Shown piece after piece: positions 3,334 to 22,888 of a DNA stretch of 64,000 nt. Under the pieces are notes generated by a model. The model was not told the DNA's origin. It did no database searches and saw nothing but the letters and a program-made list of their open reading frames with translations. Both the position numbers and the translations under genes were made by a program. The first letter of the stretch is position 1. The number at the start of each line of letters is the position of its first letter. The stretch comes from Streptomyces canus (lineage in GTDB: Bacteria; Actinomycetota; Actinomycetes; Streptomycetales; Streptomycetaceae). The stretch spans positions 6,872,001 through 6,936,000 of the forward strand of contig NZ_JAUSYQ010000002.1 of assembly GCF_030816965.1 (NCBI RefSeq), written 5' to 3'.

Positions 3334-4644
3334 TTACGGAGTAAGCCGGTTCGGCCCGCGGAACAGGAAGGTCGCCTCGCGAATCGAGTCCAGGCCGAGC
3401 ATGACCATCAGCACCCGGCCGAGGCCCATACCGAGGCCCCCGTGCGGCGGGCACCCGTACCGGAACGCGTTGAGGTAGTCCTGCATCGGCTCGGTGCTCA
3501 TGCCCTTTTCGGCGGCCTGCTTCAGCAGCACGTCGTACCGGTGCTCGCGCTGCGCGCCGGTGGTGACCTCCAGGCCCTTCCAGAGTAGGTCGAAGCTCAA
3601 GGTCACACTCGGGTCGTCGGCAGACCGCATGTGGTAGAAGGGCCGGATGCCGACCGGGTAGTGCGTGATGAACACGAACTCATGCCCGGTGGCCTCCTTG
3701 ATGTGGGCCGAGATGCTCCGCTCGCCCTCCGGGTCCAGGTCTTCCTTGACCCCTGCGGGGTCCCAGCCGCCCTTGCGCAGGATCTCCTGCGCGTCGGCCA
3801 TGGTGATACGGGGAAAGGGCGTCGTGGGCACGGTGACCTCGACGCCGAAGTGCTCGGCGATGGCCTCACCGTGCGCGTCGGCGACCTTGGCGATCGCGTG
3901 GGCGAGCATCTGCTCCTCAAACGTCATCACGTCCTCGACCCCGTCGATCCAGGCCAACTCCACGTCGACGCCCGTGAACTCGGTGGCATGCCGGGAGGTG
4001 AACGATGGCTCCGCGCGGAAGACCGGCCCGATCTCGAAGACCTTGTCGACGCCGGCCGCGATCGCCATCTGCTTGAAGAACTGCGGCGACTGCGCCAGGT
4101 AGGCGCTGCGGCCGAAGTAGCCGAGCTTGAAGACCTCGGCGCCGGACTCCGAGGCGGTGCCCATGAGCTTGGGCGTGTGCATTTCGGTGGCGCCCTGCGC
4201 GTAGGCGTACTCGCGCATGCCCTGTTCCAGGGTGGTCTGTACGGCGAACATCAGCTGGGTGGCGGGACGGCGGCGCGCGTCGAGGAAGCGCCAGTCCATC
4301 CGCTGTTCCAGGCCGGTGTGCTCGTCGATCGGTAGCGGCGTGGCGGCCGGGTTCAGGACCTCGACCGCTTCGGGGACGATCTCCAGGCCGCCGAGTTTGA
4401 CCTGGGCCGCGTCGACGACGCGGCCGGTGATCCTGACGGCGGACTCAGATGTGAGGGTTTCGAGTTGGGCCTCCAGCGGCCCGTCGTCGCGCTTGTGGGT
4501 CACCTGCACCATGCCGGTGCTGTCCCGCACGATGGCGAATTGCATCTTGCGCTGCAGGCGGAGTGTGTTCACCCATCCGCAGATGGTGACGGTACGGCCG
4601 AGGTGTTCTCGCAGGTGGGAGACGTGTACGCGGCTGTGGATCAT
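3334..4644 (-). CDS. aspS2: Archaeal-type aspartyl-tRNA synthetase (AspRS2, probably non-discriminating)
   Basis: A 436-residue class IIb synthetase with an N-terminal OB-fold anticodon-binding domain (HLREHLGRTVTICGWVNTLR onward, about residues 8-105) and a class II catalytic domain. Motif 2 is seen as VFRAEPSFTSRHATEF and motif 3 as GLGMGLGRVLMVMLGL; the Asp pocket stretch VTTGAQREHRYD is also present. The compact length and lack of a bacterial GAD insertion place it with archaeal AspRS/AspRS2, which often charge both tRNA-Asp and tRNA-Asn for use with GatCAB. The ATG at 4644 follows GGAGGA at a spacing of about six. The open frame extends upstream through the leader but without similarity. 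A normal bacterial aspS should exist elsewhere, so this is an extra, probably acquired copy. AsnRS is the main alternative reading. It is preceded by a T-box-like leader. Confidence 0.85.
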   Translation of the reverse strand: MIHSRVHVSHLREHLGRTVTICGWVNTLRLQRKMQFAIVRDSTGMVQVTHKRDDGPLEAQLETLTSESAVRITGRVVDAAQVKLGGLEIVPEAVEVLNPAATPLPIDEHTGLEQRMDWRFLDARRRPATQLMFAVQTTLEQGMREYAYAQGATEMHTPKLMGTASESGAEVFKLGYFGRSAYLAQSPQFFKQMAIAAGVDKVFEIGPVFRAEPSFTSRHATEFTGVDVELAWIDGVEDVMTFEEQMLAHAIAKVADAHGEAIAEHFGVEVTVPTTPFPRITMADAQEILRKGGWDPAGVKEDLDPEGERSISAHIKEATGHEFVFITHYPVGIRPFYHMRSADDPSVTLSFDLLWKGLEVTTGAQREHRYDVLLKQAAEKGMSTEPMQDYLNAFRYGCPPHGGLGMGLGRVLMVMLGLDSIREATFLFRGPNRLTP

Positions 4645-4910
4645 TTCGGTCCTCCGAAGGACGTCGTCATGATCCCTTGGGAGTGCGGGCGAGAAGGGCA
4701 ACTCGCGGTGCCACCGCACTTTCGACGCCACAGGGTGGCGGCCTCATTCAGGCCCGGTGACGGGGGCCGGCCGGCGGGGCATTGGACCACCAGACGGGGG
4801 CCGTTCCTCCCCGCGCTCAGGAGGGTCTTCACCTCGGGGCGCGAGACCGCCTTCCCAGCTACCGGCGGCTCTCTCTGCTCGCGTGATCCGTGGCTACTCG
4901 TCTCCGTCAG
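4645..4910 (-). promoter_or_regulatory. T-box riboswitch leader of the AspRS2 gene
   Basis: Read on the reverse strand, the leader contains the T-box hallmarks in order. GACGG (4908-4904) can pair with CCGTC (4797-4793) as the base of stem I. The S-turn-like AGTAG is at 4898-4894, AGAGAGAG lies near 4876-4869, and a distal arm CCGCC/GGCGG carries the loop GGTAGCTGGGAA. Finally the T-box bulge sequence GCGGTGGCACCGCG lies within 4717-4703. The UGGC of the bulge would pair with a GCCA tRNA end, i.e. discriminator G, as in tRNA-Asp and tRNA-Asn. Candidate specifier codons are GAC (4827-4825, Asp) and AAC (4805-4803, Asn); I could not decide between them. AGTGCGG (4720-4714) can pair with CCGCACT (4688-4682) as an alternative to the antiterminator. 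The ribosome site sits in a small loop, TTCGG-AGGA-CCGAA. Confidence 0.75.
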
Positions 4911-5109
4911 CGCGTTGCGTAGAAGGATAGGGACGGCGCGCCTCCATCCGCAATCGAGAAACACCCTGTGATCGCCTCCCGTCGGTCCCGAGAAGCGGGA
5001 ATTGGCCTGGCCACAGCCGTGCGAGTTGTTGGGCCCGAACGTCGCGAGTACGTGGCCTGTCGGGATACAAACAGCCGTGATGGCCGAACGGGGACGGGAG
5101 TGAGGAGGG

Positions 5110-5202
5110 ATGACAACCAGACAGCTTCTGGCGAAGGCCGAGCCGAGCAGCCCGGAGCTCGGGCTTCATCTTCGCCTCTGGAAGCAGACCGGAGTCGCTT
5201 AG
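5110..5202 (+). CDS. Possible 30-residue peptide or gene fragment
   Basis: A short frame, MTTRQLLAKAEPSSPELG and so on, ends with TAG at 5200-5202 just inside the 3' end of the opposite-strand phosphotransferase gene. A purine-rich GGGAGTGAGGAGGG immediately precedes the ATG. The composition is protein-like and it may be the 5' remnant of a lost gene in this decayed region. There is no recognised family. It could equally be chance. Confidence 0.2.
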   Translation: MTTRQLLAKAEPSSPELGLHLRLWKQTGVA

Positions 5203-6101
5203 AACGGCGCCCAGTCCCGCCGCGAGCCACTGGACCGCAGTGTCTCGACACGCTTCTCGACTTCCTCGGCGGCGCGCGGATTCGTGCCGGCGTTCTGCGC
5301 GAGCCAGGTGACCATCAGCAGTTCGCGGACACTCCTGAGCACGGTGTACCCGGACCACTGCCGGACGTCGAAGCCGTAGCCCTCCGAGAAGTCGGCGTAC
5401 TCGGCTTCCGTGTGCCAGCCGAAGCTGTCGTAGTACATGGCCGTCTGCATGAGGTCCCACTCACGGGGGCCTGCCGCGAAGCCGTCCAGGTCGATGACCT
5501 TCGGGTGCCCTTCGACGTCGCGCAGAACATTGCCCACATTGAAATCACCGTGCACATGCCCGGGCGGAAGGGCGAACTCCAGCTTCTCGTACTCAGCCGC
5601 CAACTCCTCAGCCAGCCCGGCTAGATACACGCGGGTCTCGGCACGGATCACAGCACGCCGCAGGCGCTGCTCGACCTTGTCGAAGGGACGGAGGGCGGGC
5701 AGGGAGAAGTGCGGCGGCTCCAGTCTGTGAAGCCGCCGCAGGAGTTCGCCCATCTCACCGGTGCTGGCGTACTTCTCGCCGTCGGCCAGCCCCTCCCAGA
5801 AGGTCACGGGGTGCCGGTCGACGACGACCGGCTGTTCCGCCTCTGTGACGAGTCGGGCCGACGGGTAGCCCTCAGCCGCGAGCCATTGCGCAACGGCAAC
5901 CTCTCGGCGCACTGACGGTAGACGGTCCGCGTGGCGGCCGACGCGAGAGACGACCCGGCCTCCGGCGATGCGGAACACCGCGTGGTCACCGAGCCGCAGC
6001 AGTTCGATTCCGTCGGGGTCCAGTCCGATCAACTCGCAAGCTGTGCGCAGGATGCTCTCTGAAGCTGCGGCGTCGAACGTGGTTCGCTCGCTCGTCGTCA
6101 T
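5199..6101 (-). CDS. Aminoglycoside-phosphotransferase-fold kinase (APH family)
   Basis: A 300-residue protein of the APH/choline-kinase fold. The catalytic loop HGDFNVGN is at residues 184-191 and the metal-binding motif IDLDGF at 203-208. An N-lobe with the ATP-binding strand FRIAGGRVVSRVG precedes them. ATG at 6101 follows GGAGGG at a spacing of about nine; an upstream extension of the frame is rejected for lack of similarity. Such proteins phosphorylate small hydroxyl substrates, and many are housekeeping or of unknown substrate rather than antibiotic resistance enzymes; nothing here fixes the substrate. It lies on the same strand as the P-loop protein and nucleotidyltransferase that follow upstream, with gaps, in the accessory region. 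Confidence 0.75.
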   Translation of the reverse strand: MTTSERTTFDAAASESILRTACELIGLDPDGIELLRLGDHAVFRIAGGRVVSRVGRHADRLPSVRREVAVAQWLAAEGYPSARLVTEAEQPVVVDRHPVTFWEGLADGEKYASTGEMGELLRRLHRLEPPHFSLPALRPFDKVEQRLRRAVIRAETRVYLAGLAEELAAEYEKLEFALPPGHVHGDFNVGNVLRDVEGHPKVIDLDGFAAGPREWDLMQTAMYYDSFGWHTEAEYADFSEGYGFDVRQWSGYTVLRSVRELLMVTWLAQNAGTNPRAAEEVEKRVETLRSSGSRRDWAPF

Positions 6102-6344
6102 GCCGTCTGACCCTCCTGCCCGACGGGTAGAGCGAGGAGAACCCGCCCTCACGTCGCTCTGCCTCTCGATGCCAAGGGTTCCACGGCCGCGCGGCGAGTG
6201 GTCGACACCGCGCGCACCGGGCGTACTCAGTGTTGCCCACGGCCGGGAGCGGCCGACCAGCAGACATGAGGCGGGACAGCACACCGGCCGGCGTCGACCC
6301 CGAGCGAGATCGTCAGATGCTTACGTCAGGACCGCTCGAACGGA

Positions 6345-9940: not shown

Positions 9941-9952
9941 CTTTTCCCGGAG

Positions 9953-10024
9953 TGCCCCCGGCAGGATTCGAACCTGCGCACACGGCTCCGGAGGCCGTTG
10001 CTCTATCCCCTGAGCTACGGGGGC
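9953..10024 (-). tRNA. tRNA-Arg (anticodon CCG)
   Basis: A 72-nucleotide cloverleaf on the reverse strand. The acceptor GCCCCCG pairs with CGGGGGC and is followed by discriminator A. The D-stem is GCTC/GAGC, and the anticodon stem ACGGC/GCCGT holds the loop CTCCGGA (anticodon CCG, codon CGG). The T-arm is GCAGG-TTCGAAT-CCTGC. CCA is not encoded. The 3' end faces the decayed accessory region (lower coordinates), as expected for a gene used as an integration site by actinomycete integrative elements. I found no second copy of the tRNA 3' end in the window that would mark the far attachment site. Confidence 0.97.
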
Positions 10025-22737: not shown

Positions 22738-22888
22738 GACACCGTCTGCCGAGGGCTGGGAATAGATCGCGGTGCCCCCTCGTTTTGGGGGATGCGGCCA
22801 GTCCTGGCAGACTGGTACGTCGGCCCCGGTTCACGCCCCCCGCAACCCGCGGCGGCGACCCGGTGCCCTCCCGAAACTAGGAGACACC
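22738..22888 (+). promoter_or_regulatory. Candidate structured leader of rpmE (L31 leader-like)
   Basis: The 150-base stretch before rpmE folds readily. CCCCCTCGTTTTGGGGG (22783-22799) forms a C/G hairpin. GTCTGCC near 22744 can pair with GGCAGAC near 22806-22812, enclosing it. The segment CAGACTGGTACGTCGGCCCC follows. Actinobacterial L31 genes are reported to have autoregulatory leaders. The match to that class is by position and foldability only; I cannot run a covariance model. Confidence 0.35.

Follow-up and report, generated by a model that had tools for sequence, protein, structure and literature searches.

The window analysed here, a 64,000-nucleotide stretch of the Streptomyces canus genome (NZ_JAUSYQ010000002.1, positions 6,872,001 to 6,936,000), carries on its minus strand a putative promoter, then a T-box leader, then aspS2, a gene for an archaeal-type aspartyl-tRNA synthetase (AspRS2). 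The leader is almost certainly a genuine T-box. It matched Rfam model RF00230 over its full length (4919-4682, minus strand) with 70.2 bits (E 3.9e-15 in 701 nt, 1.4e-14 genome-wide), which is below the gathering threshold of 93 bits, so that it goes unreported at that threshold. The first-pass annotation of the locus had proposed a T-box with S-turn, AGAGAG element, distal loop and T-box bulge directly before an archaeal-type AspRS gene, together with an Rfam search; the search bears this out, and all of these elements are present in the sequence and the Rfam alignment. The features, numbered by window position and all on the minus strand, are as follows.

4948..4953 (-): putative -35 box TTGCGG, at 18-nt spacing to the -10 box
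4924..4929 (-): putative -10 box TATCCT, conserved just before the stem I base
4682..4919 (-): T-box leader, full-length covariance-model match (RF00230, model 1-219)
4820..4905 (-): stem I from helix GGAG (4905-4902)/CUCC (4823-4820) upward; its upper and distal helices show compensatory base changes across 72 leaders
4895..4898 (-): AGTA S-turn strand facing the specifier, from the sequence; aligns to Rfam consensus AGUA
4871..4876 (-): AGAGAG element of distal stem I, from the sequence and Rfam alignment
4852..4859 (-): distal loop GCTGGGAA, from the sequence; similar in relatives
4825..4827 (-): specifier GAC (Asp), at a conserved position in the specifier loop
4774..4814 (-): stem II GCGGGG/CCCCGC, which includes the rejected AAC (4805-4803); every pair in 71 or 72 of 72 leaders
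4724..4742 (-): stem III; 6 of 8 pairs changed on both sides
4682..4720 (-): antisequestrator, helix A1 AGTGCGG/CCGCACT and helix A2 GCGAG/CTCGC; covariation
4707..4713 (-): T-box bulge TGGCACC with variable base C at 4710, from the sequence
4694..4698 (-): loop strand CCCTT of a candidate pseudoknot; covaries with the flank
4674..4678 (-): second strand of the candidate pseudoknot, AAGGG in the flank, 3 nt past A1; register test and cross-shuffle
4649..4662 (-): Shine-Dalgarno (SD) hairpin GTCCT/AGGAC with GGAGG (4655-4651); one covarying pair
4638..4675 (-): start-codon helix GGATCAT (4675-4669)/ATGATCC (4644-4638); 98.5% of cells paired
3334..4644 (-): aspS2, archaeal-type aspartyl-tRNA synthetase, 436 amino acids; NF003483 475 bits against a cut-off of 353

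None of the 121 sampled Streptomyces genomes contained a T-box of 93 bits or more, and each had at least one T-box match below that value; the low score is therefore attributable to the Rfam model and not to a doubtful RNA. In the 10.7-Mb genome itself, RF00230 matches at E 0.001 or better were limited to the aspS2 leader and one other (L069), both under 93 bits, the second of which precedes a gene named ileS by reading. A -35/-10 pair similar to that of the window was detected with a loose pattern in 57 of the 60 leaders scanned (three of the 63 leaders described below were left out), and a stricter standard promoter scan of the locus reported no promoter ahead of the aspS2 leader.

AspRS2 contains a class II catalytic domain (PF00152) and a PF01336 domain, and its closest solved structures are those of Thermococcus AspRS (3nel/1b8a) and Thermus thermophilus AspRS2 (1n9w). 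A separate bacterial-type AspRS is encoded elsewhere in the same genome, and no further PF00152 match was found in that genome beyond these two, hence no AsnRS was seen. As the bacterial-type enzyme is present, aspS2 is very probably an auxiliary gene. Indeed, a bacterial-type AspRS scored above the curated cut-off in all 20 genomes tested, and in 18 of them the T-box gene was an additional archaeal-type AspRS (assigned in G213 and G217 from partial matches beside the leader and in G837 by reading). The earlier proposal that an extra AspRS of archaeal type stands under a T-box with a long stem I is supported. The T-box lies on the bacterial-type AspRS gene itself in the remaining two genomes, G544 and G893. 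There, the T-boxes (L111/L212 in G544, L220 in G893) lack a long stem I and stand directly before the gene, whose product is the sole full AspRS match found in the genome.

Scanning reference genomes with the AspRS2 protein yielded 67 loci. The motif GGTGGNACC was located just before the gene in 62 of the 65 loci with usable upstream sequence, all 62 of them actinobacterial; the three loci without it are two that are not actinobacterial (L061, L064) and one from an unclassified bacterium (L063). The 62 relatives and the window make up the set of 63 leaders, and the leader set was afterwards selected by the bulge motif. Over all helices, 97.6% of cells pair, compared with 35-59% when the partners were slid. 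Compensatory changes were observed at 6 of 8 pairs in stem III and at 3 of 7 pairs in antisequestrator helix A1, of which 99.8% of cells are paired, and helix A2 is changed on both sides in L205, L206 and L208 (GGGAG). The stem I helices likewise covary in 72 leaders, a set that excludes L033. The L033 leader is a natural deletion in which stem I is gone and the part from stem II to the antisequestrator remains. Of 58 distinct rows, 23 have C-G in place of U-A at one pair of the SD hairpin, and 20 do not form its innermost pair; the start-codon helix, at its 98.5% of paired cells, showed little variation and no compensatory change. Stem I is long and bears the distal AGAGAG/loop module, and the shortened stem I of ileS-type T-boxes is not found. 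The leader is thus not a member of the ileS type (class II), though it may work in a similar manner.

On its right side, the specifier loop has the sequence GAA-GAC-C. The rule given in the TBDB publication (PMC7778990) places the specifier two to four positions from the 3' end of the loop, which identifies it as GAC. In the 72 leaders, GAC or GAT occurs in 64 of 64 cases before AspRS genes and TCC in 8 of 8 cases before seryl-tRNA synthetase (SerRS) genes, in the same frame, and the base next to the triplet is variable. From this comparison, the ligand of the leader is very likely tRNA-Asp. The first-pass annotation had left two specifier candidates, GAC and AAC, and with the second the sensing of tRNA-Asn; only GAC (4827-4825) stands, as it is conserved and inside the specifier loop, and the same counts speak against tRNA-Asn as the sensed ligand. 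AAC (4805-4803) belongs to stem II, and several leaders (e.g., L052, L053, L054) no longer have it. A threonine reading in the frame ACC was also rejected, as the variants retain GAC/GAT and not ACC, and the genome's own tRNA-Thr(ggt) has U73.

Discriminator bases read from the tRNA sequences of the same genome are G73 for tRNA-Asp, tRNA-Asn and tRNA-Ser(gct), A73 for tRNA-Ile and U73 for tRNA-Thr(ggt). The bulge had been said to fit a G discriminator, and the G73 of the genome's own tRNA-Asp agrees with this. At the variable bulge position, 39 of the 63 leaders have C, 19 have T and 5 have A, so that the 58 leaders with C or T can pair with G73 of tRNA-Asp. The five leaders with A (UGGA bulge; L035, L036, L049, L055, L062) do not provide this pairing and weigh against the assignment; serS2 lies upstream in four of them, and in L062 the aspS2 frame is broken.

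A sister switch supports the reading of the specifier. In four sampled genomes (G117, G239, G168, G040), a leader with the specifier TCC precedes a SerRS gene (serS2) at a distance of about 3 kb upstream from aspS2:

L100:2591-2796, L101:2483-2687, L102:3444-3648, L103:2674-2878: TCC-specifier leaders before the SerRS gene

TCC leaders were also found away from aspS2 in seven other genomes (L104-L109, L204). The SerRS genes of L100, L103 and L108, which are among the eight in the specifier count, were confirmed by profile, as were those of L102, L104 and L204; the others are named by reading, and the frame at L109 is broken. The serS2 leader is closely similar to the aspS2 leader apart from its TCC. 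Judged from the aligned leaders, the GAC/TCC difference amounts to a specifier exchange made by nature and offers the strongest internal check on how the specifier is read.

No terminator-like site or U-run was found in the aspS2 leader region, and an intrinsic terminator was therefore rejected. Translational control is the probable mode, given that no terminator was found and that conserved helices enclose both the SD sequence and the AUG. Neither the SD hairpin nor the helix at the start codon overlaps with A1/A2. CCCTT in the apical loop of the antisequestrator and AAGGG, a segment 3 nt beyond A1, are complementary. Both are invariant across the 63 leaders, so wider sampling was needed. When 394 genomes of the class were searched with a second leader model, 39 had matches at E up to 0.01. 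Among 28 further loci (L200-L227), the T-box precedes an archaeal-type AspRS gene at 19 (18 by profile, L200 by reading), a SerRS gene at one and a bacterial-type AspRS gene at two; at L215, L222 and L224-L227, which are weak matches or lie on short contigs, no AspRS or SerRS gene was identified.

The 96 parsed T-boxes contained 37 distinct loop/flank sequences. Spacer 3 gave the best register among spacers 0-12, with 4.38 of 5 pairs, and when flanks were shuffled among 11 classes, the observed mean of 3.73 compared with a shuffled mean of 2.88 and was reached in 4 of 20000 shuffles; one row (L107) was parsed on another motif and is counted in this test. A looser parse, in which A2 was overextended, favored spacer 4 (4.11 of 5), with 15 of 5000 shuffles of 13 classes reaching 3.31, and was replaced. 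Covarying loop/flank examples include CCCUU/AAGGG, CCCU/AGGG, UCCCG/CGGGG, GCCC/GGGC and CCCUG/CAGGG. This covariation suggests that the loop/flank pseudoknot is likely real. Several observations count against it: 71 of the 96 T-boxes belong to one loop class (CCCUU/AAGGG), so the covariation rests on the remaining classes; L221 and L223 form no pseudoknot in the spacer-3 register; and the pseudoknot has 3 nt to bridge a 12-bp helix.

Related AspRS leaders suggest how the pseudoknot could act. In L211 and L216-L219, a plain 8-10 bp SD sequestrator takes up the A1 strand together with some of the flank segment and, as the segment is shared, pseudoknot and sequestrator would be mutually exclusive. 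Folding of these leaders predicted the SD sequence to be unpaired at 0.0 in the sequestered state, at 0.04-0.28 with A1/A2 and at 0.11-0.51 with the segment also blocked; the corresponding values for L210 were 0.20, 0.43 and 0.77. Coupling of the pseudoknot to the release of the start codon or SD sequence is thus plausible. The folding results also include points to the contrary. L201 and L205-L208 showed no clear SD release, and the window's start codon was closed in all states (unpaired at 0.01 with A1/A2 and at 0.19 with the segment blocked). Furthermore, the window and its close relatives favor the antisequestrator even without tRNA. Energy folding was consequently not decisive as proof of a switch.

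In 33 of the 62 relatives, aspS2 faces convergently a set of four genes, c1, c3, c2 and c4, and L017 has the first three (c1, c3, c2). The c1 product is a JmjC-like oxygenase by predicted fold (mean predicted local distance difference test [pLDDT] score of 68.6) with NO66 and FIH as best matches, and its Pfam match to Cupin_8 is below the cut-off. Both c3 and c2 encode radical S-adenosylmethionine (SAM) proteins, and c2 resembles PapB-type peptide maturases far below their cut-off. The small c4 protein is conserved over its whole length and is predicted to adopt a small alpha/beta fold (mean pLDDT of 70), for which no structural match was found at E 0.001 or better. Given this full-length conservation and the alpha/beta prediction, a classical precursor peptide is only one possible reading of c4.

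In an even sample of 246 Streptomyces genomes, the leader model matched at E 0.001 or better in 26 and strongly (E under 1e-29) in 21, one of which (G020) has the leader ahead of a more distant AspRS. A close c2 homologue (73-93% identity) was present in 12 of the 246, with the leader 3.0-3.8 kb away in 12 of 12; 9 of the 21 strong-leader genomes, the window's genome included, have no c2. On the AspRS2 tree (60 ingroup rows, a quick method with many weak forks), the presence of the gene set requires 14-15 changes, and the nearest relative of the window has the gene set, as does one Nocardiopsis. Frequent loss of the gene set is the simplest reading of this pattern, though transfer is possible. 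Orphan aspS2 copies appear to be under purifying selection, with ratios of nonsynonymous to synonymous substitution rates (dN/dS) of 0.12-0.23 in the twelve closest pairs; the medians over all pairs, which are not independent, were 0.19 for orphan and 0.14 for linked copies. The retention of aspS2 and its sensor after loss of the gene set fits a resistance or back-up gene; for a pathway gene, such persistence would be less expected.

The first-pass annotation had suggested that gene and riboswitch were imported together and had proposed a phylogeny of the synthetase. Their joint travel holds, as leader and gene are co-inherited (Mantel r 0.77, 59 loci; none of 999 permutations reached this value), and import as a needed explanation does not. 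The riboswitch family is spread over many actinomycete families, and the nearest relative keeps the gene set, so that the isolated position of the gene is accounted for equally well by loss and by import. The gene set, the SerRS sister switch and the candidate pseudoknot had gone unnoticed in the first-pass annotation. The phylogeny, now run, favors frequent loss of the gene set and leaves room for transfer.

Comparison of the sequences establishes the T-box, its specifier, the auxiliary status of aspS2 and its linkage to the gene set in relatives; from these we infer translational control, the pseudoknot as the switch and a role in resistance. The leader would bind tRNA-Asp through its GAC specifier and sense charging of the tRNA 3' end. 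Uncharged tRNA-Asp would stabilize the antisequestrator, whose apical loop would then base-pair with the nearby segment on its 3' side. This pseudoknot would remove part of the strand that closes the start codon (in relatives, the SD sequence), allowing AspRS2 to be translated. AspRS2 would then most likely serve as a reserve enzyme that replaces an inhibited normal AspRS, foremost in self-resistance to the product of the radical-SAM/JmjC-like gene set. Taken as a whole, this account of a tRNA-Asp T-box with a translational pseudoknot switch and a reserve or self-resistance AspRS2 is moderately favored.

For the role alone, self-resistance or a response to an inhibitor stands at about an even chance, and self-resistance is its best, albeit unproven, reading. 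A second copy beside a cluster, as expected for self-resistance, occurs in the relatives (33 of 62; 12 of 12) and not in the window. Several findings weigh against this role. The gene set is absent from the window, and in 28 of the 62 relatives none lies within 8 kb, two of these having short downstream sequence (L031 with 51 nt and L035 with 1020 nt after the gene). For the enzymes of the set, the names come from fold alone or from family matches that are general or below the cut-off, and an AspRS inhibitor as the product of the set is conjectural. Furthermore, G005, G011 and G073 have c2 homologues of 51-53% identity without an aspS2 leader. These homologues belong to a related but different gene set. 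A broader scenario can be put forward only tentatively: an actinomycete T-box family with a pseudoknot switch would act in Streptomyces as an antibiotic-response sensor, in which an AspRS-directed gene-set product, own or a neighbour's, turns on a resistant AspRS2, and a one-codon swap would have given rise to the SerRS2 switch.

AspRS2 might instead be a general stress or nutrient back-up without a tie to antibiotics, adding aspartylation when the housekeeping enzyme is limiting. A T-box and an archaeal-type second AspRS do occur together in several other actinomycete families, where the gene set was not sought, and two studies of Firmicutes (PMC2494555, PMC2916919) describe T-boxes on one of two synthetases. 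However, the leader is strong in only 21 of the 246 Streptomyces genomes, and every close radical-SAM homologue accompanies a leader, which makes a plain back-up function somewhat unlikely. A supply function, in which AspRS2 provides an Asp-tRNA building block to the neighbouring pathway and the T-box answers the drain of charged tRNA-Asp, would suit both the linkage of aspS2 to the gene set and a tRNA-Asp T-box. It appears improbable, as orphan copies with the same leader are under purifying selection and no tRNA-dependent ligase or transferase was recognized among ten neighbour families scanned.

As for the mode of control, a switch by transcription termination, either Rho-dependent or through a hairpin without a U-run, would be in keeping with the serS2 leaders L104-L109, which end in a strong GC hairpin apart from the SD sequence. 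For aspS2, the conserved hairpin holds the SD sequence and AUG instead, the scan gave no terminator-like site, and related AspRS leaders have a plain SD sequestrator; termination is accordingly quite unlikely here.

A short L1 loop with a proline in the anticodon domain marks non-discriminating AspRS such as Thermus AspRS2. Compared with Thermus thermophilus AspRS2 (1n9w) and Thermococcus AspRS (1b8a, 3nel), AspRS2 is archaeal-type over its full length, and its L1 loop is Thermococcus-like and unlike that of Thermus AspRS2: it reads AAQVKLGGLE, compared with NAKAPGGLE in 1n9w, with K-L-G as in Thermococcus AspRS and without the proline. The non-discriminating enzyme envisaged in the first-pass annotation is therefore not borne out, as the loop has K-L-G and not the P-G of Thermus AspRS2. 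AspRS2 does score narrowly above the NCBIfam aspS_nondisc cut-off (377.7 against 368.4), which counts against a discriminating enzyme; L112, which has the L1 proline, falls below that cut-off (339.3), and since proline-bearing relatives fail it, the model does not track the L1 proline. A non-discriminating AspRS2 under tRNA-Asn control, for which the NCBIfam family name 'aspartate--tRNA(Asn) ligase', the narrow aspS_nondisc pass and the G73 of tRNA-Asn could be adduced, is very improbable in view of GAC/GAT in 64 of 64 AspRS leaders and the missing proline. The C-terminus is FRGPNRLTP or FRGPNRLSP in 60 of 60 full-length orthologues and FPRDLHRLTP in the T-box relatives L110 and L112.

Antibiotic producers are known to possess resistant auxiliary synthetases, such as TrpRS1 for indolmycin and SerRS2 for albomycin. 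AspRS2 resembles these in being a second synthetase beside the housekeeping one and tied, in relatives, to a biosynthetic-like cluster; to our knowledge, T-box regulation and an Asp target would be new among them. Actinobacterial ileS translational T-boxes, as described in PMC1262725 and PMC7583486, are similar in their T-box elements and, probably, in SD sequestration replacing a terminator. In contrast, the aspS2 leader has a long stem I with distal module, a tRNA-Asp ligand and an auxiliary gene, and its SD and start helices overlap the candidate pseudoknot segment and not the antisequestrator pairs. Among Firmicutes, C. acetobutylicum has three aspS genes, one of them with a T-box (PMC2494555), and in B. 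cereus LysRS1 has one (PMC2916919), so that there, too, only one of several synthetases per amino acid carries a T-box. Both papers treat these cases as antitermination T-boxes, whereas the aspS2 leader is G+C-rich, lacks a recognizable terminator, has a sister switch for SerRS and, in relatives, is linked to a gene set of biosynthetic appearance.

No paper joining T-box, Streptomyces and aspartyl- or seryl-tRNA synthetase was found in the openly licensed PMC literature, and some of the leaders may be in TBDB. The aspS2 leader is a T-box by anatomy and is new in ligand, stem I length and gene, and probably in its expression platform, which it offers for testing. Actinobacterial T-boxes are thereby extended well past ileS, to Asp, Ser and a full-length stem I, and scores below the Rfam cut-off suggest why annotation overlooks such leaders. 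The analysis also highlights an uncharacterized gene set, possibly one with a product directed at aspartyl-tRNA synthetase; for finding producers and resistant nonproducers, the leader with aspS2 provides a sequence handle.

Other features of the window were noted. An APH-family phosphotransferase gene (5199-6284, minus strand) lies directly upstream of the aspS2 leader on the same strand, and a tRNA-Arg(ccg) gene (9952-10024, minus strand) is located about 5 kb from aspS2. tRNA genes, which are possible integration sites, are also present at the loci of L001, L019, L022 and L027. Finally, an L31-Actinobacteria ribosomal protein leader (RF03158) was detected at 22820-22867 on the plus strand with 47.2 bits.

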